DNA of 20,111 nt, taken from IMG/VR virus record IMGVR_UViG_3300020195_000188, positions 1-20,111 of that record; one strand, 5' to 3'. Of the stretch, positions 2,401-10,766 are shown piece after piece (the stretch's first letter is position 1; the number at the start of each line of letters is the position of its first letter). The notes beneath the pieces are model-generated. The model was not told the DNA's origin, searched no databases, and was given only the letters and a program-made list of their open reading frames with translations. The stretch is from a virus. Made by a program: the position numbers and the translations under genes.

Positions 2401-2496
2401 ATGATTAAGGCGGAGCTAGGCCAGGCATACCCAGGCTACATGTCTAACGCCGTGGTGTTCGCGCGCGCAATGCTCACAAGATGGGGTAAGGTATGA
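2401..2496 (+). CDS. Possible 31-residue mini-gene or remnant
   Basis: ATG 2401 opens a 31-residue frame (starting MIKAELGQAYPGYMSNA) in the same frame as the Ead-like gene, separated from that gene's TGA by four codons. There is no good ribosome site. It may be a small gene, or the tail of a longer Ead-like protein cut off by a stop mutation. A 7-codon frame at 2385-2408 also overlaps here. Confidence 0.3.
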   Translation: MIKAELGQAYPGYMSNAVVFARAMLTRWGKV

Positions 2497-2502
2497 CCAA
2501 CT

Positions 2503-2634
2503 ATGAACATTACTGATTTTGAAATCACACTTATTCGGTTATTGATTTATTTTCACGGCTTTAAGCTAATAGTAGAATTTGTTTTTAAACTGTCTAACTT
2601 CTTATACTCGGTCTATAAAAAATTACGTTACTGA
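2503..2634 (+). CDS. Possible 43-residue hydrophobic peptide
   Basis: ATG 2503 opens a 43-residue frame with a central hydrophobic/aromatic segment (LIRLLIYFHGFKLIVEFVF) and a basic Lys/Arg end. Base composition is visibly more AT-rich than the flanking genes. The nearest purine-rich site (TAAGG at 2487-2491) is about 12 bases away, so initiation would be weak. It could be a small membrane peptide or chance. Confidence 0.3.
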   Translation: MNITDFEITLIRLLIYFHGFKLIVEFVFKLSNFLYSVYKKLRY

Positions 2635-2640
2635 TCCTAG

Positions 2641-2660
2641 TGCTACACTTGCACTGCACT
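2641..2660 (+). promoter_or_regulatory. 20-bp repeat copy 1, candidate extended -10 promoter
   Basis: TGCTACACTTGCACTGCACT is identical to 3002-3021. Its start, TGCTACACT, fits an extended -10 element (TG-N-TAnAnT type, hexamer TACACT 2644-2649) with no good -35. Transcription would then start near 2656 and run into the structured region. It could equally be a binding site for a phage regulator. ACTTGCACT (2647-2655) recurs inverted at 2865-2873. Confidence 0.4.
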
Positions 2661-2939
2661 CTTTGAAAATTTGATTGTGGCAGCACTGAAGGAAGTGCGG
2701 GGGAATAAAAAGCACTGACCCCTCCGAACGGCGTGAGAACATACGGCACGCTCGATAGAAGACTGATCGGAGAAATCCGTTCTAGTGCCGGTAAAAATAA
2801 CGTCAGACTATGCGGATAACCGCTGATCCAGCCCGAGAATAACAGCCAAGGTAGGGCCAATGTGAGTGCAAGTCTGACCTCTTAATTTGGGGCTAGAAAT
2901 AAAGGTAGCCGGTATCAAGCCCGGCCCACAATCAATAGA

Positions 2940-2990
2940 AGTGCGATGAGTCGGCTACCACCGGAAACGGAATTGACGGTTCATCGCACT
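2940..2990 (+). repeat. 10-bp perfect inverted repeat
   Basis: AGTGCGATGA at 2940-2949 is the exact reverse complement of 2981-2990, with a 31-base interval. The stem can be lengthened to GAAGT/ACTTC if three bases bulge on the 3' side. It is not followed by a T tract, so it is not a typical terminator. It is the most stable-looking element of the non-coding region before copy 2 of the 20-mer. Confidence 0.55.
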
Positions 2991-3001
2991 ACTTCACGTC
3001 A

Positions 3002-3021
3002 TGCTACACTTGCACTGCACT
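3002..3021 (+). promoter_or_regulatory. 20-bp repeat copy 2, candidate promoter of the regulator gene
   Basis: This is a perfect second copy of the 20-mer, 361 bases downstream of the first. As an extended -10 (TACACT 3005-3010) it would start a transcript near 3017, giving a leader of about 80 bases that contains the strong hairpin 3035-3077 before the HTH gene. The flanking bases differ between the copies, so only these 20 bases are conserved. That suggests selection on a site rather than a larger recent duplication. Confidence 0.4.
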
Positions 3022-3034
3022 AAGCACATGTGCA

Positions 3035-3077
3035 GGAGCGGTGTGTGAAATTTAATTCCGCTGGACCACGCCGCTCC
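3035..3077 (+). promoter_or_regulatory. Leader hairpin upstream of the HTH regulator
   Basis: GGAGCGGTGTG (3035-3045) pairs with CACGCCGCTCC (3067-3077): 11 base pairs with one G-U and a 21-base loop. It ends 19 bases before the ATG at 3097. The 5' arm contains GGAG, so folding hides a ribosome-site-like sequence. It is followed by TTCCC rather than a T run, so a regulatory leader is likelier than a terminator. Confidence 0.5.
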
Positions 3078-3096
3078 TTCCCATACACTCTGAGGA

Positions 3097-3480
3097 ATGG
3101 CAGGCAAACTACGCAGGATAGTATTGAAAGCAACGCTAGATGAACTCTACGCCTGCAACGGCGGTAGAAAACGCGCTGCACAGGCGCTTGGTATCAGTGT
3201 TCGCGCGGTGAGAAATTACATAAACGAGATGAGGCGCGGGGGATACGGGCCAGTGCCGCCCCCACTCCTGCCGCCGAACGCCGGGGGGCGCAAATACACG
3301 CATGAGGTCCCATGCCCGTGCACAGACCAGAAGTGCCAGACACGCGCGGCACTCCATTATAAAATGGCACTAAAAAAGACGAAGGCCATACAGATAAAGC
3401 AGGGCTACTGCGAAAAGTGTGGCCGGTGCAGGCCCATCGCAGGCAAATGCGCCCGCTGCTTCGGCGACGCAACCGCATGA
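3097..3480 (+). CDS. Fis-type HTH plus zinc-ribbon DNA-binding regulator
   Basis: This is a 127-residue protein. Residues 13-45 (TLDELYACNGGRKRAAQALGI and on through VRAVRNYINEM) have the Fis/NtrC C-terminal helix-turn-helix pattern: a helix, N/G-x-R-x-x-A-A-x-x-L-G-I-S, then a recognition helix. A Pro-rich linker (51-60) follows. The C-terminal half is Cys-rich (73, 75, 80, 105, 108, 111, 118, 121), with C-x2-C at 105/108 and 118/121 typical of a zinc ribbon. It probably binds DNA and may control the late genes downstream. The ATG touches its GAGGA site, which is too close. A TTG at 3124 with AGGA five bases before it is an alternative start that keeps the HTH. Its position next to the repeat region suggests it could act on that region. 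Confidence 0.75.
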   Translation: MAGKLRRIVLKATLDELYACNGGRKRAAQALGISVRAVRNYINEMRRGGYGPVPPPLLPPNAGGRKYTHEVPCPCTDQKCQTRAALHYKMALKKTKAIQIKQGYCEKCGRCRPIAGKCARCFGDATA

Positions 3481-3506
3481 TGTATACTTCTACTACAGGG
3501 GAACAC

Positions 3507-3866
3507 ATGGACGACCTGCAAGCCTGGATGCGTAAAGAATTAGAAATACTACATGATGTACGCATAGGGCAGGCAGAGATGCGCGCGCAACAGGTAGAGA
3601 TGCGGCAGAGCCAGACCCAAATGATGGGCGCACAGCAAGAGCTACTGAAAGACCACGAGACACGCATACGCACAGGCGAACGCCTCATGGAGCAATCAAT
3701 GGCCATCCTCACCTCGATCAATCATTTCGTATTGACGCAGGGCAGGGCCAACACAGGATTCGAAGTGCGCCTTGGTAGGTTAGAGAAGACCGCACTCATG
3801 GCGGCAGGCGTAGTCGTAGCAGTGAAGTACGGTGTAGATATCCTCACCGCACTGAACGTGAGGTAG
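3507..3866 (+). CDS. Coiled-coil protein with C-terminal membrane anchor
   Basis: This is a 119-residue protein. ATG 3507 follows a good AGGGGA site. An ATG at 3477 is in frame and overlaps the previous stop, but lacks such a site. Residues 5-70 are a long Gln/Glu/Met/Arg-rich helix, very likely a coiled coil. A second short helix (about 84-95, FEVRLGRLEK) leads into one hydrophobic segment (about 96-112, TALMAAGVVVAVKYGVDIL). The layout, coiled coil then tail anchor, resembles XhlA-like phage membrane proteins and some holin partners, but sequence identity to them is not evident to me. No lysis genes are visible nearby, so a lysis role is unproven. Confidence 0.7.
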   Translation: MDDLQAWMRKELEILHDVRIGQAEMRAQQVEMRQSQTQMMGAQQELLKDHETRIRTGERLMEQSMAILTSINHFVLTQGRANTGFEVRLGRLEKTALMAAGVVVAVKYGVDILTALNVR

Positions 3867-3869
3867 GCA

Positions 3870-3965
3870 GTGAAGCGCCACACAACACAGAGCCTCTGGT
3901 CAATGGCCGCGATGACCGCAGCAATGTGTGCATCCCTACTACTTGCAGCATGGACCTACTCCTAG
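3870..3965 (+). CDS. 31-residue membrane peptide
   Basis: GTG 3870 is preceded by GAGGTAGG (3860-3867), four bases after the previous stop. The product has a basic head (MKRHTTQSLW) and one hydrophobic segment rich in Ala, Met and Leu to the C-terminus. The arrangement right after the coiled-coil membrane protein suggests the two may work together. Function unknown. Confidence 0.5.
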   Translation: MKRHTTQSLWSMAAMTAAMCASLLLAAWTYS

Positions 3966-3980
3966 GTCCCAACGCATTAC

Positions 3981-4016
3981 TTGACCAAAAATTGTAACGC
4001 ACTCACACTCTGTGCG
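3981..4016 (+). promoter_or_regulatory. Weak promoter-like sequence and small hairpin
   Basis: TTGACC (3981-3986) matches a -35 box. The hexamer 17 bases on, CACACT, is a poor -10 but resembles the TACACT of the 20-mer repeats. CGCAC/GTGCG (3998-4002/4012-4016) can form a 5-bp hairpin directly before the GGGGG ribosome site of the next gene. Low certainty. Confidence 0.25.
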
Positions 4017-4027
4017 GGGGTACGGTT

Positions 4028-4231
4028 TTGGATGCACCGGAAGTCGACGGATGGTTTCGCTTCAGTGACCTCACATCACCGCAGCTAGAGCGTATAAGAG
4101 AACGCGCGCGCGTACTGATCGAGCAGAGCGCATACCCAGACCCTATCCTGTGCATTATCGCCGCATACGTAATAGAAGTTAACGAAGAGTACGCAAGACT
4201 TGACGCACACGGTGAGGGGCACACACATTGA
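4028..4231 (+). CDS. 67-residue protein of unknown function
   Basis: The TTG start at 4028 is supported by a GGGGG site (4016-4020) seven bases upstream; no ATG in this frame is available before the conserved-looking part. The protein is acidic and helical (residues 18-35, LERIRERARVLIEQ) with a short hydrophobic stretch (PDPILCIIAAYVIEV) too polar at its ends to be a clear membrane segment. The C-terminus is His-rich (HGEGHTH). Its stop overlaps the TTG of the next gene. Confidence 0.6.
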   Translation: MDAPEVDGWFRFSDLTSPQLERIRERARVLIEQSAYPDPILCIIAAYVIEVNEEYARLDAHGEGHTH

Positions 4232-4521
4232 GTGAAGATAGATTACGCTTAAACATGAACTCGATGCACGACCAAGACACGTACACCGCAGGAGAGAGAA
4301 GGGATCACGAAAGATGCGTGAGACCGCCAGACAGCGACGGCGGAATGCTACCACCCCCTGCAGATGAGAAGCTTGACTATAGAACTGCGCTATATAAGAA
4401 AGCCAAATGCACACACAGGGTAGAAGGCCCTGTCGAGTGCAAGCAATCCCTCACGAATGCCCCACCGAAGAGAGACCGCTGCCTCTGCACATGTCACATC
4501 AAGGGGTATGAGGCGACATGA
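4228..4521 (+). CDS. 97-residue protein with a Cys/His cluster
   Basis: It starts at TTG 4228 in a TTGA overlap with the previous stop, behind GAGGGG (4214-4219). The N-terminal half is polar with no recognisable fold. The C-terminal half has Cys and His spaced as KCTHRVEGPVECKQ and RCLCTCH, which could bind a metal ion. It overlaps the nuclease gene by ATGA at 4518. Function unknown. Its location between the regulator and the DNA nuclease suggests a role in DNA metabolism, as inference only. Confidence 0.6.
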   Translation: MSEDRLRLNMNSMHDQDTYTAGERRDHERCVRPPDSDGGMLPPPADEKLDYRTALYKKAKCTHRVEGPVECKQSLTNAPPKRDRCLCTCHIKGYEAT

Positions 4522-4994
4522 AGAAATACACACGCGCTCTAGCAGGCAGACGTGCACAGAATAACGGCGCAGTGTTCGAGACCCTATTCCAGGGCGCATG
4601 TCTAAGGCGCGGCATCGCAACGACAAGAATACCAGACGGATGTAAACAGCTTGCCACGCGCCGCATCATACGTGTGCGCACCCCCTTCGACTGGGCACTC
4701 TCATACAACGGCAAGGCTGCACTGATCGATACGAAGACCCTAGATGAGGCAGCGTTCCCTAACGGTGCAGTAGATCCGAACCAGGCGCACACACTACTCA
4801 CTCACCTACTTAAAGGCACGATCGCAGGCTACGTCGTTAACCTACGAAAGACCGACACTTGCATGTATATCCCCGCATCGAACCTGTGCAACGCGCTGAA
4901 AGGCAGGGGTAGCATCAAGGTGAATGACCCAGGCGTCGTACTCCTAGGCACGCTGCAGACCATGGACATGACGCGGCTATTCACTAGCGTTTGA
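4518..4994 (+). CDS. RecU-like Holliday junction resolvase (PD-(D/E)XK nuclease)
   Basis: This is a 158-residue protein. The active-site pattern of the RecU/PD-(D/E)XK family is visible in order: Glu21 in GAVFE, Asp58 in TPFDWALSYNGK, the D-T-K of ALIDTKT (71-73), then PNQAHTLLTHL with Gln89 and His91, followed by a G-x-x-G-Y-V-V-N-L strand (100-109). Family members cut four-way DNA junctions. In phages such enzymes debranch replicated DNA so it can be packaged, which agrees with the position directly upstream of the terminase genes. Length is slightly below bacterial RecU (about 200 residues), as usual for phage versions. The ATG overlaps the previous stop as ATGA. VRR-NUC-type or other nucleases of this fold are less likely. 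Confidence 0.8.
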   Translation: MKKYTRALAGRRAQNNGAVFETLFQGACLRRGIATTRIPDGCKQLATRRIIRVRTPFDWALSYNGKAALIDTKTLDEAAFPNGAVDPNQAHTLLTHLLKGTIAGYVVNLRKTDTCMYIPASNLCNALKGRGSIKVNDPGVVLLGTLQTMDMTRLFTSV

Positions 4995-5015
4995 CTTGAG
5001 TATTGAAACTACGAC

Positions 5016-5138
5016 ATGATGGAATCACCACGCATCATAGCGTGCGTAGTCGCATGGGGTGCGGCTACCACCATCGTAACCCTGGGGGGGTTTGAATGGG
5101 ACGACCGAAGAAACCTATCGATAGAGATCAGGTCATGA
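5016..5138 (+). CDS. Possible 40-residue membrane peptide overlapping terminase small subunit
   Basis: ATG 5016 opens a 40-codon frame with one hydrophobic segment (IIACVVAWGAATTIVTLGGF). The last 43 bases overlap the small terminase gene in another frame. There is no clear ribosome site. It fits the local habit of tiny membrane proteins and would fill the only gap between nuclease and terminase, but it may be chance. Confidence 0.35.
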   Translation: MMESPRIIACVVAWGAATTIVTLGGFEWDDRRNLSIEIRS

Positions 5139-5425
5139 AGCTTGCGGCCATGGGCTGCCGGCAGACTGAAATCGCCGCCTTCTTTGACGTGAGCGATAAG
5201 ACAATCTCAAGCCGTTTCTCCAAGGAACTGCGAAAAGGCGTTGAGATGGGGAAGACTAAGCTACGTCGCCTCATGTGGCAGTCTTGCGAGAAGGGCAACG
5301 TCACTATGCAGATCTGGTTATCTAAGAACATTCTAGGCTACACAGATAAGCTTGAGCAGGTAGCAGACCCTGCAGCACAGCCCATGCGCCTCATCATCGA
5401 AAGAGAAAAGCCTAAGGGTGAGTGA
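5096..5425 (+). CDS. terS: Terminase small subunit
   Basis: This 109-residue protein recognises phage DNA and loads it onto the large subunit. It begins MGRPKKPIDRDQVMKLAAMG and has an HTH (about 20-45, CRQTEIAAFFDVSDKTISSRF). It then carries the family-like stretch LRRLMWQSCEKGNVTMQIWL and SKNILGYTDK (59-86), which matches the R-x-x-x-x-x-x-x-x-K-G-N-x-x-M-x-I-W-L-x-K pattern of one common phage small-terminase group. A GGGGGGG run (5084-5090) serves as ribosome site. The stop lies within the start of the large subunit. The assignment rests on both sequence pattern and position. Confidence 0.85.
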   Translation: MGRPKKPIDRDQVMKLAAMGCRQTEIAAFFDVSDKTISSRFSKELRKGVEMGKTKLRRLMWQSCEKGNVTMQIWLSKNILGYTDKLEQVADPAAQPMRLIIEREKPKGE

Positions 5426-6689
5426 CATTATCTTTAGGCCATTCGATAAGCAGCAAGAGGTGCTAGACTGCGACGCGCGAGTCAAAGGCGTGTTCGCAGG
5501 TAAGCGCGGCAGTAAGACGGAGCTCGGTGCTATTCAATCGGTGATCTGGCAGGAGAGTAAACCAACGAACAGGTCATACGACATTGACCCTTTCACTGGT
5601 GTGATCGTCGCACCTACATACGATATGCTGACGCGCCTCTCATGGAAGAAGTTCTCAGCTTACGCCCGCCCGTTTATTAAAGAGCAGACGAAGTCGCCTA
5701 AGCACATCACGTGGCACGATGGATCAGAGATCTACGGCCTATCGGCAGACAGGCCTGAGCGCATCGAAGGCATGAAGATCGATTGGGTGTGGCTAGACGA
5801 GTGCTTCCAGGTAGATGAGCAAACATTCCTAGAACTGCAGGCACGCGTTGCAGACACCAGGGGTTTCATGCTCCTTACCGGATCCCTAGGAGTGCAGTAC
5901 GTAAACCCTAAACAACATTGGGCGTATAAGTACTTTAAAGATAAGGCAAACGACGGCTTTCGTTGCTTCGAATGGGCGACCGCTGATAACCCGTACTTTC
6001 CTAAAGATGAGATCGAGCGGCTTAAGACGATCCTCGACGCTGAAACGTTTAAGCAGATGTTCACGATCAATTGGGACAGTAACTCTAACAACATGGTCTA
6101 CTCCGACTTCTCATCGGCTAACCTGATACGTGGCTACACAGTTAACCCAAACCTACCCGCGCTGGTCGCAGTAGACTGGGGATGGCGGCATAAGATGGCG
6201 TGCCTCTTTGCGCAGTACGATCAAGCGACAGACACCGTCACAGTGTTTGACGAGATCGTTCGTAGCAAGATGACGCTAGACGATCTTCACAGAGAGATCA
6301 CAAGTCGCGGTCTACAAGTGTCCGGCTACTGCTGCGACATCTCAGGCAACCAAGAGCGTGAGATGGTTGGCATATCAAACGTCCAATGGTTCAAGGATCG
6401 TGGGATAAAAATGGTGTTCCGCACGTCTGCCGTTCTGTATGGCGTGGCTCTTGTGCGCTCATACGTGAAGGCTGCAAACGGCAGGGTTAGGCTACTGATC
6501 GCAGAGGATACGTGCAAAGAGACTGTGACCGCGATTAAGTCCTACCGCTACCCTGAGAGTGACGGCATCGCAAAGGCTGAGACACCAGTGAAAGAGGAAG
6601 ACGATGCGGTGGACGCGCTCCGCTACCTCTTCGTCAACTTCATCGACAAGAATGTACGTGACAGGCATAGTAGATCTATTCAATTATAA
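5418..6689 (+). CDS. terL: Terminase large subunit (packaging ATPase and nuclease)
   Basis: This 423-residue protein pumps DNA into the capsid and cuts concatemers. ATPase half: Walker A-like FAGKRGSKTE (26-35), Walker B IDWVWLDE (121-128, Asp127/Glu128) and coupling motif LLTGSLG (152-158). Nuclease half of RNase H fold: VAVDWGW (Asp253), CCDISG (Asp307) and EDDAVDALRYLF (394-405, Asp396/Asp399), the usual end of the family. The GTG start at 5418 overlaps the small subunit by eight bases; the site before it (AAGGG) is very close, so coupling to the upstream gene is likely. The Walker A has S-K-T in place of the commoner G-K-T/S, a tolerated variant. Length is normal to slightly short. Confidence 0.95.
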   Translation: MSDIIFRPFDKQQEVLDCDARVKGVFAGKRGSKTELGAIQSVIWQESKPTNRSYDIDPFTGVIVAPTYDMLTRLSWKKFSAYARPFIKEQTKSPKHITWHDGSEIYGLSADRPERIEGMKIDWVWLDECFQVDEQTFLELQARVADTRGFMLLTGSLGVQYVNPKQHWAYKYFKDKANDGFRCFEWATADNPYFPKDEIERLKTILDAETFKQMFTINWDSNSNNMVYSDFSSANLIRGYTVNPNLPALVAVDWGWRHKMACLFAQYDQATDTVTVFDEIVRSKMTLDDLHREITSRGLQVSGYCCDISGNQEREMVGISNVQWFKDRGIKMVFRTSAVLYGVALVRSYVKAANGRVRLLIAEDTCKETVTAIKSYRYPESDGIAKAETPVKEEDDAVDALRYLFVNFIDKNVRDRHSRSIQL

Positions 6690-6705
6690 AACCTCAGGGG
6701 GTTCG

Positions 6706-8109
6706 ATGGCAGGCCTTAGAGAGATGGTCCCAACGCTTCTCGCGTACATAAAGAACCACGCAAGGTACCTAGAGCACAACGCGGTGCTCCTCGATGTGTA
6801 TAACGGTAACCTCCTGCCATTGGTTGACGCTGCCATTGCACCACCTAAGTTCTCGCAGAAGTACTATGAGCAGATCAAAGAGCGGATCATCGCGATCAAC
6901 GTATTAAAGCGCATCACAGATAAGTCAGCGCGCGCATACGTGAACGCACCTCAACGCATCGTAGAGGATAAGTACGCTAAAGACGTCGCATTCTATGAAG
7001 ATGAGATGTCTATGAACTCTAAGATGCAGATAGCAGACGTGTATGCAGACCTATTCAAGGGCTACGCACTAGAGCCGTTCCTGCATAAGGGCAGGCCACG
7101 TTTACGCTCACTGCCCTTTGACCGATTCCTACCCTACTCTGATGACCAGGTCGATGGCACGTCTGTCACCGCGTTCATAAAGTTCATGGGTAAGCGCACA
7201 CGCTCAGGCAACCGCACACTCTCTGTGTTCCACGTCTACACCGATGACGAGTTCCTGTCGTTTGATAGTGATGGCGAGATCGTGCGTGAAGACCTTGAGG
7301 GTAACGACGGCATCAATCCCTATGGCGTAATTCCGTTCATCTACGGCAACCGCGGGAATGACATGCTCATCCCTACGCAGGATACAGATACGCTATCCCT
7401 CACTAAGATCATTCCGGTGCTACTGACAGACCTGTCCGGCGCTATTATGTTCCAGTGCTTTAGCATCGTGTACGGGATCAACGTAGATTCTAAAGACCTG
7501 ACCATGTCTCCGAACGCGTTCTGGGACTTGAAGGGCGACATCGCAGCACAGGCAGGCGGCGGCGCTCCAACTGTCGGTACGATAAAGCCCGAAGCAGACA
7601 TTACTCAAGTGCTCGCATACATCATGAACATCTTTACGTTCTGGCTTGAGACGCGCGGCATTCGTGTTGGTAGCGTTGGCAGTGCAGACGGCACAGGCGG
7701 TGCCTCAGGCATTGCAAAGATCATTGATGAGATGGACGCGACAGAGCTGATCGGTAAGTCACAAGAGGCTTTCCGTAAAGATGAGATGGAATTCTGGCAC
7801 CGGCTGCAGCTCATGCAGAACTACTGGGTAGCAAACAACATGCTAAGCACCGAGCATCGCCCTATCATCTGGGGTGCTGACTTCAGGGTGGGCACGATCT
7901 TCGATGCGCCATCTCCTGGCGTTGATCGCATGACCGAGGTGACGACAGTAAAGCTTGAACGTGATGCAGGCTTCATCTCTACGCGTAACGCAATCGAGAT
8001 GCTCTACCCTGACTTGACTCCCGAGCAAGTGGACGAGCGCCTAGCAGACATTAGCGGAGACCTAACAGTATCAGTGCCTGATAGCCCTAATCCCACGGGC
8101 AATACTTGA
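6706..8109 (+). CDS. Portal protein
   Basis: This 467-residue protein forms the dodecameric ring at one capsid vertex through which DNA passes. The start is ATG 6706, five bases after a CAGGGGG site (6695-6701). The frame is open further upstream inside the terminase gene but without such a site. The N-terminal part is helical (TLLAYIKNHARYLEHN, then YYEQIKERIIAINVLKRITDKSARAYVN), and NPYGVIPFIYGN at 204-215 matches the N-P-x-G-x-I-P motif common in portals. A late helical region (300-375) would form the stem and wing helices. The Pro/Asn-rich tail is short. It sits directly after the large terminase, as expected. Its TGA overlaps the next ATG by one base. Confidence 0.88.
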   Translation: MAGLREMVPTLLAYIKNHARYLEHNAVLLDVYNGNLLPLVDAAIAPPKFSQKYYEQIKERIIAINVLKRITDKSARAYVNAPQRIVEDKYAKDVAFYEDEMSMNSKMQIADVYADLFKGYALEPFLHKGRPRLRSLPFDRFLPYSDDQVDGTSVTAFIKFMGKRTRSGNRTLSVFHVYTDDEFLSFDSDGEIVREDLEGNDGINPYGVIPFIYGNRGNDMLIPTQDTDTLSLTKIIPVLLTDLSGAIMFQCFSIVYGINVDSKDLTMSPNAFWDLKGDIAAQAGGGAPTVGTIKPEADITQVLAYIMNIFTFWLETRGIRVGSVGSADGTGGASGIAKIIDEMDATELIGKSQEAFRKDEMEFWHRLQLMQNYWVANNMLSTEHRPIIWGADFRVGTIFDAPSPGVDRMTEVTTVKLERDAGFISTRNAIEMLYPDLTPEQVDERLADISGDLTVSVPDSPNPTGNT

Positions 8110-9875: not shown

Positions 9876-10766
9876 ATGAGTGCAACGCTGGTAAATGAAC
9901 TTTCCGAACAGTCTCAGAAATTTTGGGCGCCCGTTTTTAAAGATGAGCTTCTTGAAACTTCCATCTTGCCTTCACTGGTAAACAAGGAATATCAAGGCGA
10001 GATCAAACAAGGCGGCGACACCGTTTATGTTTCCATGATCAAGCGGCCCACTGCTGAAATTAAAACAATCGGCGCTGGTTCGGACACGTTCAGTTCACAG
10101 AAGATGACCACTCAACGCGTTGGCATTGTTGCTGACAAGCGCATTACCGCATCGTTCGAGTTGGAAGACCTTGCTGATCTTCAGACCCAAATCGGTAACC
10201 CCGACGGTCAATCGAAGATTCGTCAAGTGCTTCTCGAGGCTGCGCAAATCAGCTTGAACACTTACCTCTACAGCCTGGTAGCACCAAGTGCATCTGCCCC
10301 TGACCATATCCGTTCTGGCATCACCGACTTCAACGCTTCTGAACTTCTGGCCAATCGCCAGCTGGCATCGAAAGCACGTTGGATGAATGAAGGCGGCTGG
10401 TGGTCATTGCTTGATCCCTCCTACATGAACGACATCTTGTCTGCTACCACGCTCACTAGCTCTGATTTCAATGGCGCAGATGCCCCTGTGATCGGCGGCA
10501 AAGTGGCAAGCACTCGCTTTAACTTCAACATCCTAGAAGACAACTCTGCTGGTTTGTTGCAATTGAGCCCTGGCTCTGCAGGTCAAGACTGCGGTCTTCT
10601 GTTCCATCCTGACTTCATGTATCTCGTGATGGGCGCACCGACCTTCAAGGTGTCCGACCTTCACGCGAATCATCAACACGGCTACCTTGTGTCTGTGGAC
10701 ATGTTGGTTGGTGCTAAACTCGGCATCGATGGCAACGTTAAGCACATCCAAGTATACAACACCTGA
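9876..10766 (+). CDS. Major capsid protein
   Basis: This is a 296-residue shell protein, presumably of HK97 fold. ATG 9876 has an excellent AGGGGG site. N-terminal helix residues (LSEQSQKFWAPVFKDELLE) lead to GGDTVYVSMIKRPTAE (46-61), the extended E-loop/strand region of capsid proteins. This is followed by the helical spine (LLEAAQISLNTYLYSLV, about 119-135) and a C-terminal beta-rich part (HPDFMYLVMGAPTF, then HGYLVSVDMLVGAKLGIDG). That alternation and the final G-A-K-x-G-h-D pattern are those of P22-coat-like/HK97-fold shells. The codon choice looks smoother and more uniform than in neighbouring small genes, in keeping with high expression. Assignment by pattern, length and the scaffold gene just upstream. 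Confidence 0.88.
   Translation: MSATLVNELSEQSQKFWAPVFKDELLETSILPSLVNKEYQGEIKQGGDTVYVSMIKRPTAEIKTIGAGSDTFSSQKMTTQRVGIVADKRITASFELEDLADLQTQIGNPDGQSKIRQVLLEAAQISLNTYLYSLVAPSASAPDHIRSGITDFNASELLANRQLASKARWMNEGGWWSLLDPSYMNDILSATTLTSSDFNGADAPVIGGKVASTRFNFNILEDNSAGLLQLSPGSAGQDCGLLFHPDFMYLVMGAPTFKVSDLHANHQHGYLVSVDMLVGAKLGIDGNVKHIQVYNT

Follow-up and report, generated by a model that had tools for sequence, protein, structure and literature searches.

A phage RNA family with a probable tRNA-like core and a hypervariable insert

The window analyzed here is a stretch of 20,111 nucleotides from IMG/VR virus record IMGVR_UViG_3300020195_000188, which PHROGs annotation identifies as a segment of a tailed phage carrying the following genes.

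4518 to 4994: Holliday junction resolvase (PHROGs)
5096 to 5425: terminase small subunit (PHROGs)
5418 to 6689: terminase large subunit (PHROGs)
6604 to 8109: portal (PHROGs)
9876 to 10766: major head protein (PHROGs)

Elsewhere in the window, positions 41-600 hold small, very glycine-rich ORFs of repetitive composition (GGC/TAC-rich), the first of which has no match in Pfam, and two adjoining, overlapping 64-amino acid ORFs resembling tandem paralogues lie in the accessory region at 1605-1990. The gap at 2635-3096 is genuinely free of genes, as the first-pass annotation of this DNA had claimed, with no credible gene found there. The two identical 20-mers and the inverted repeats that it had listed are likewise all present; the 20-mers are unique within the window, with 0 expected by chance, and the inverted repeat at 2940-2949/2981-2990 belongs to a longer pair of 13-bp arms. 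The repeats and the segment that they delimit are arranged as follows.

2641 to 3001, no strand: cassette of 361 bp, made up of 341 bp and one copy of the repeat, missing from the near-identical relative L358
2641 to 2660, + strand: direct repeat copy 1, exact, holding the extended -10-like TGCTACACT (2641 to 2649), for which a promoter role is inferred
2937 to 2993, + strand: long hairpin within the cassette, 3' of the conserved RNA, with arms 2937 to 2949 and 2981 to 2993 (12 of 13 paired)
3002 to 3021, + strand: direct repeat copy 2, also holding TGCTACACT (3002 to 3010)

Because TGCTACACT is present in both 20-mers, each of them could act as a promoter, one for the RNA and the other for the HTH gene, a possibility for which there are no transcript data. 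Directly upstream of the HTH gene (3097), at 3028-3084, lies a hairpin with 18-nt arms that are 83% paired, whose counterpart in L358 has bases altered on both arms; it is possibly a leader or operator structure. The description of the whole of 2635-3096 as structured holds for 2671-2935, where structure is conserved across homologues, and not for the region in its entirety: the long hairpin at 2937-2993, which contains the 10-bp inverted repeat, is absent from the family consensus. The GAAA-capped hairpin noted earlier is real (CGGA-GAAA-TCCG within 2762-2786) and is located in the variable insert of the RNA. Folding of the 361 nt outperforms 98 of 100 shuffles on the + strand (z = -2.29) and 89 of 100 on the minus strand (z = -1.30), so that single-sequence folding is only mildly unusual and it is comparison with homologues that decides the matter.

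A search of annotated phages returned three short matches, all to one stretch of 25-26 nt, which fall in unannotated gaps of Komagataeibacter phages phiKX1 and phiKX2 and of Caulobacter phage DMCA. The 21-mer GTAGCCGGTATCAAGCCCGGC from the window RNA was found again in 12 IMG/VR contigs, and comparison of the flanks at these loci revealed, upstream, a second conserved hairpin together with a closing helix of changing sequence. From among the matches listed, in phages and genomes, 143 non-redundant full elements were extracted, and a covariance model trained on 55 of them, with the window left out, finds the window at 2670-2937 on the + strand (49.6 bits, E = 4.9e-9). Across loci the model gave ~260 raw matches, including some duplicate records and a few weak ones, with at least ~190 in IMG/VR phage loci and ~40 further bacterial genome contigs. 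It is virtually certain that a structured RNA family is represented in the window, and the copy found there is a divergent member with an insert among the longest.

Six named phages carry the element (phiKX1, phiKX2, DMCA, Pseudanabaena phage Pan3, Alcaligenes phage QDWS595 and Acidovorax phage AP1), and in all six it is unannotated. Carriers are widespread among phages and prophages of alpha- and betaproteobacteria and also include a cyanophage and bins of Planctomycetota and Verrucomicrobiota; the element occurs in 4 of 200 sampled Pseudomonadota genomes and in 9 of 150 genomes from the family of Acetobacter, each sample including the starting genome. Broad spread across phyla was rejected, the matches outside Proteobacteria that rest on an 18-mer alone being mostly chance, with the model negative in 9 of 10 such genomes. 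Among genomes of the phylum to which L309 belongs, 149 were likewise negative with the model, in a search without a positive control; no relatives were found by way of the HTH protein, and too few were found for the carrier L404-L406. For the window gap, Rfam gave no match at gathering and nothing sensible at E 10. We found no description of the family in a literature search that mostly did not cover subscription journals and preprints, for which reason its novelty is provisional.

The components of the RNA in the window are listed here in order.

2671 to 2935, + strand: tRNA-like noncoding RNA including its variable insert (covariance model match at 2670 to 2937)
2671 to 2680, + strand: 5' strand of P1, TTGATTGTGG, acceptor-like, with a 7-bp core at 2674 to 2680; pairs with 2926 to 2935 and covaries in the family
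2681 to 2682, + strand: two-nucleotide linker C-A, equivalent to tRNA positions 8 and 9 (family conservation)
2683 to 2698, + strand: H1, D-arm-like hairpin GCACT-GAAGGA-AGTGC (5-bp stem, each of its pairs showing double changes)
2699 to 2906, + strand: variable insert of 208 nt in place of an anticodon arm, holding the GAAA hairpin
2907, + strand: invariant A preceding H2 (143 of 143 elements; 67 of 70 in the sample selected on H1 only)
2908 to 2925, + strand: H2, T-arm-like hairpin GCCGG-TATCAAGC-CCGGC (loop consensus from a sample not selected on H2)
2926 to 2935, + strand: 3' strand of P1, CCACAATCAA, directly after H2 without a linker; pairs with 2671 to 2680 and covaries in the family

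Read from 5' to 3', the family consensus consists of P1 of at least 7 bp, C-R, H1 of 5 bp with the loop GANGGA, the insert, the invariant A, H2 of 5 bp with an 8-nt loop and the return strand of P1 without a linker. The first nucleotide of the linker is C in 142 of 143 elements and the second is G or A, again in 142 of 143, and the contiguous length of P1 peaks at 7-9 and frequently exceeds 7 bp. Over the 55 sequences 96.8% of cells pair, compared with 73.8% when shuffled, and double changes are found in 16 of the 18 pairs. The covariation score in the same 55 sequences is 0.611, against 0.157 for shuffles and 0.05-0.12 with slid partners; double-changed cells number 217, against 53 and 26-57, respectively. 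In the stems G-U exceeds A-C by 49:10, which places the encoded RNA on the + strand of the window. Given the massive covariation among homologues, the lack of an Rfam family and the absence of a conserved coding frame, the suggestion in the first-pass annotation of a new phage noncoding RNA is well supported, and its other proposals, a replication origin or a regulatory hub, are disfavored because the element stands alone in unrelated contexts without a conserved neighbor protein.

The first set of elements was picked by the sequence of H2, so that the loop conservation seen in it is partly circular. In an independent sample of 99 sites picked by the H1 hairpin alone, the P1 partner is present in 83, and 70 have, abutting a matching P1, a stem of 5 bp with a loop of 8 nt, compared with none of 495 shuffles. 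The H2 loops of this sample (TATCAAGC, AATCAAGC, TTTCGAGC and TGTCGAAT among others) have the consensus U-N-U-C-R-A-R-Y. The T-loop of tRNA reads U54 U55 C56 R57 A58 R59 Y60, and the H2 consensus differs from this loop only by an extra nucleotide after position 54. Because the T-like arm abuts, the linker has 2 nt, the D-like loop bears GG and the core helix has 7 bp, the topology, as judged from sequence comparison, is that of the acceptor/D/T body of tRNA with the anticodon arm replaced. We consider a tRNA-like core fold highly probable; the tertiary contacts, including the D-loop/T-loop elbow, are inferred.

The likeness to tRNA (RF00005) thus extends over the 7-bp acceptor core, the 2-nt linker, the D-like and T-like arms, the abutment of the T-arm on the acceptor helix, the T-loop letters U-U-C-R-A-R-Y and a location near tRNA genes. 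Unlike tRNA, the family lacks an anticodon arm and any common anticodon loop, with unrelated inserts of 27-268 nt instead; its T-like loop has 8 nt rather than 7, it is unscored by the Rfam tRNA model and by ARAGORN, and no CCA end is encoded in the family elements. The tmRNA (ssrA) likewise has tRNA-like ends and a large domain in the place of the anticodon arm, and shares pseudoknots with some of the inserts, whereas many inserts of the family are too short for a tag frame and are not conserved, a D-like stem is present, and ARAGORN and Rfam are negative at the element. With moderate confidence, we favor reading the element as a stand-alone tRNA-mimic noncoding RNA with a hypervariable insert, not in Rfam, that would act in trans on a factor recognizing the tRNA elbow or the acceptor-T region.

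TATAAT-like hexamers peak at -12 from nucleotide 1 of the 7-bp helix (16 of 141 versus 1.0 expected, Poisson P ~2e-14), which is the canonical position of a -10 element if transcription begins on the first base of this helix, and -35-like hexamers stand at the right spacing in 9 of 22, versus 10%. A promoter belonging to the element itself, with the first paired base as +1, is predicted for at least a subset of copies and seems probable, and it is visible in a minority of copies only. Intrinsic terminators directly downstream are weakly represented (7 of 152 versus 1 of 138), and across the element loci there is neither a conserved neighbor protein nor a fixed downstream gene. Of 48 cases of a tRNA gene in these loci, 45 are co-oriented with the element, and the two are 4-12 nt apart at L310, L249, L286, L020, L023 and L050; most copies have no tRNA nearby. 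At L194 a phage tmRNA called by ARAGORN, with the tag ANDEVYDNRLAA, lies 20 nt upstream of the element (3770) on the same strand.

This co-orientation and the spacing of 4-12 nt at several loci are what would be expected if the element were instead a cis-acting processing or stability signal, that is, a tRNA-like module of polycistronic transcripts that is cut by tRNA-processing enzymes and tolerates an insert, and the 12-13 stacked bp formed by the T-stem and P1 are like those of tRNA precursors. However, a signal of this kind is at odds with a promoter of its own whose +1 is the first paired base, as predicted for a subset, and with the distance of most copies from tRNA genes and the lack of a fixed downstream gene, and we regard it as unlikely.

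The closest relative found, L358, has a TerL that is 98% identical and DNA that is 92-96% identical over the main aligned blocks. Window 2475-2661 aligns to L358 3415-3601 and window 3002-8040 to L358 3581-8623, and the blocks meet on the 20-mer at an empty site with a single copy, in which 19 of 20 bases are identical; the covariance model detects no element elsewhere in the L358 locus. Given this empty site, the window copy is a cassette of 361 bp delimited by direct repeats. A single 20-mer in L358, where the window has one on each side of a 361-bp insertion, is a pattern that a selfish mobile RNA element might leave, SINE-like or moved by a recombinase, with a tRNA-like core that aids its own spread and a target of 12-20 bp that is duplicated. 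A 17-bp repeat (16 of 17) immediately around the element in L077 and tandem copies in several phages (L047, L111, L113 and L185) point the same way. However, the identical pattern would result if L358 had lost the segment through its repeats or if a promoter had been duplicated, the L358 sequence adjoining the repeat is itself diverged, and no enzyme travels with the element. Flanking direct repeats show no family-wide excess, the only clear cases being the window and L077, and were rejected as a family trait, so that neither target-site duplication nor repeat-mediated loss nor duplicated promoters can be excluded; candidates for empty sites among other loci are ambiguous. Mobility with target duplication is accordingly doubtful, the selfish element as a full explanation is improbable, and any insertion mechanism is inferred. 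L358 is also ~270 bp longer than the window between 8040-8091 (L358 8623-8941), close to where the portal gene ends.

To our knowledge, the bacterial tRNA mimics known so far are few, namely tmRNA and the Y RNAs, and the Y RNA YrlA reportedly occurs in phages too, an account attributed to Chen et al. in 2014. The family could be a phage relative of YrlA (RF02553), in which case its tRNA-like part would bind PNPase and the RNA would tether it to Ro60/Rsr. YrlA likewise combines an end-closed stem with a tRNA-like domain, and is itself a substrate of tRNA-modifying enzymes (PMC8394870). In both noncoding RNAs the ends pair to close the molecule, and tRNA is mimicked by D-like and T-like arms. 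In the phage family, unlike in YrlA, the T-like arm abuts the end-closing helix itself and the insert is hypervariable (27-268 nt). RF02553 matches none of five element-bearing phages, and the TROVE/Ro60 partner, whose gene usually lies near that of YrlA, is found in 0 of 45 element-bearing phage records and in 1 of 12 host genomes, where the match is weak. PNPase binding and modification by TruB/DusA are traits of YrlA for which there are no biochemical data in the phage family, and we judge such kinship very unlikely. GOLLD and ROOL are structured RNAs of phages and prophages, of unknown function and often near tRNA islands (PMC12286853). The family is likewise placed near tRNA genes, but those RNAs have several hundred nt, conserved complex folds and Rfam models, whereas members of the family are small, have a tRNA-like core and show no Rfam match to either at gathering.

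Degenerate tRNA or tmRNA genes, which the acceptor/D/T topology, the proximity to tRNA genes and the tmRNA 20 nt upstream at L194 might suggest, are scarcely credible, since ARAGORN and Rfam report no tRNA or tmRNA at the element, the core is strongly constrained and unlike tRNA (8-nt T-like loop, GANGGA) rather than decaying, and the unrelated inserts, as short as 27 nt and without a shared anticodon loop, cannot fit a tag frame. A permuted tmRNA or an ssrA attachment site, at which the location of the first matches near integrases hinted, was rejected on the results of ARAGORN and Rfam and the diversity of contexts.

On the favored reading as a tRNA mimic, 2671-2935 on the + strand would encode a stand-alone structured noncoding RNA, a member of a phage family absent from Rfam, predicted to fold into an acceptor-like helix, an abutting T-arm-like hairpin, a linker, a D-arm-like hairpin and a variable domain. 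The D-loop/T-loop elbow is inferred to form, and the RNA may engage a factor that recognizes the tRNA elbow or the acceptor-T stack; that it does so in trans is inferred because there are no conserved neighbors. Candidate factors, in the absence of protein data, would be RNase P, TruB/TrmA, EF-Tu, PNPase or a tRNA-directed defense, and the RNA might serve as a decoy, a tether or a stabilized scaffold. Engagement of the tRNA-handling machinery by a trans-acting mimic is plausible but remains tentative, there being no transcript or protein data. With P1 often longer than 7 bp and no CCA encoded, the RNA is unlikely to be aminoacylated and may resemble tRNA in structure alone. It is conceivable, as a speculation, that the family represents an unrecognized phage-wide class in which a constant tRNA-elbow scaffold with its own promoter and an insert under arms-race selection, carried from phage to phage on a small cassette bounded by direct repeats, diverts or senses the tRNA-handling machinery of the host or its tRNA-based defense.

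The combination of a fixed tRNA-like core with mostly unrelated inserts suggests a shared entry point, the tRNA machinery, with a fast-changing specificity, the hypervariable insert supplying, by inference, the phage- or host-specific part; this is of possible relevance to phage counter-defense and host takeover. The family, which sits in unannotated gaps even in published phages, would point to an unstudied route by which phages engage the host tRNA machinery, and isolates that carry it exist for testing (phiKX1/2, DMCA, AP1, Pan3 and QDWS595).

The inserts range from 27 to 268 nt with a median of 83, and similarity among them is detectable in only 4 of 143 elements, a set that had been thinned to below ~85% similarity, which excludes very close relatives from this comparison. 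An insert helix ends beside the invariant A in 68%, compared with 40% in shuffles, and H-type pseudoknots can form in some inserts (L040, L236 and L257), the crossing helices being without a control. Antisense matches of the inserts to their own phage locus show no excess, on which ground an antisense guide against that locus was rejected, and no target of the insert in the host was identified. A Group I intron was likewise rejected: the pairing of GTCAGACTA with AAGTCTGAC hinted at P7 but lies within the variable insert, and Rfam reports no intron even at E 10. In L097, at 3768-3909, the insert seems to hold a further cloverleaf whose T-arm is normal (GCTGGTTCGAATCCAGC), a nested tRNA-like unit.
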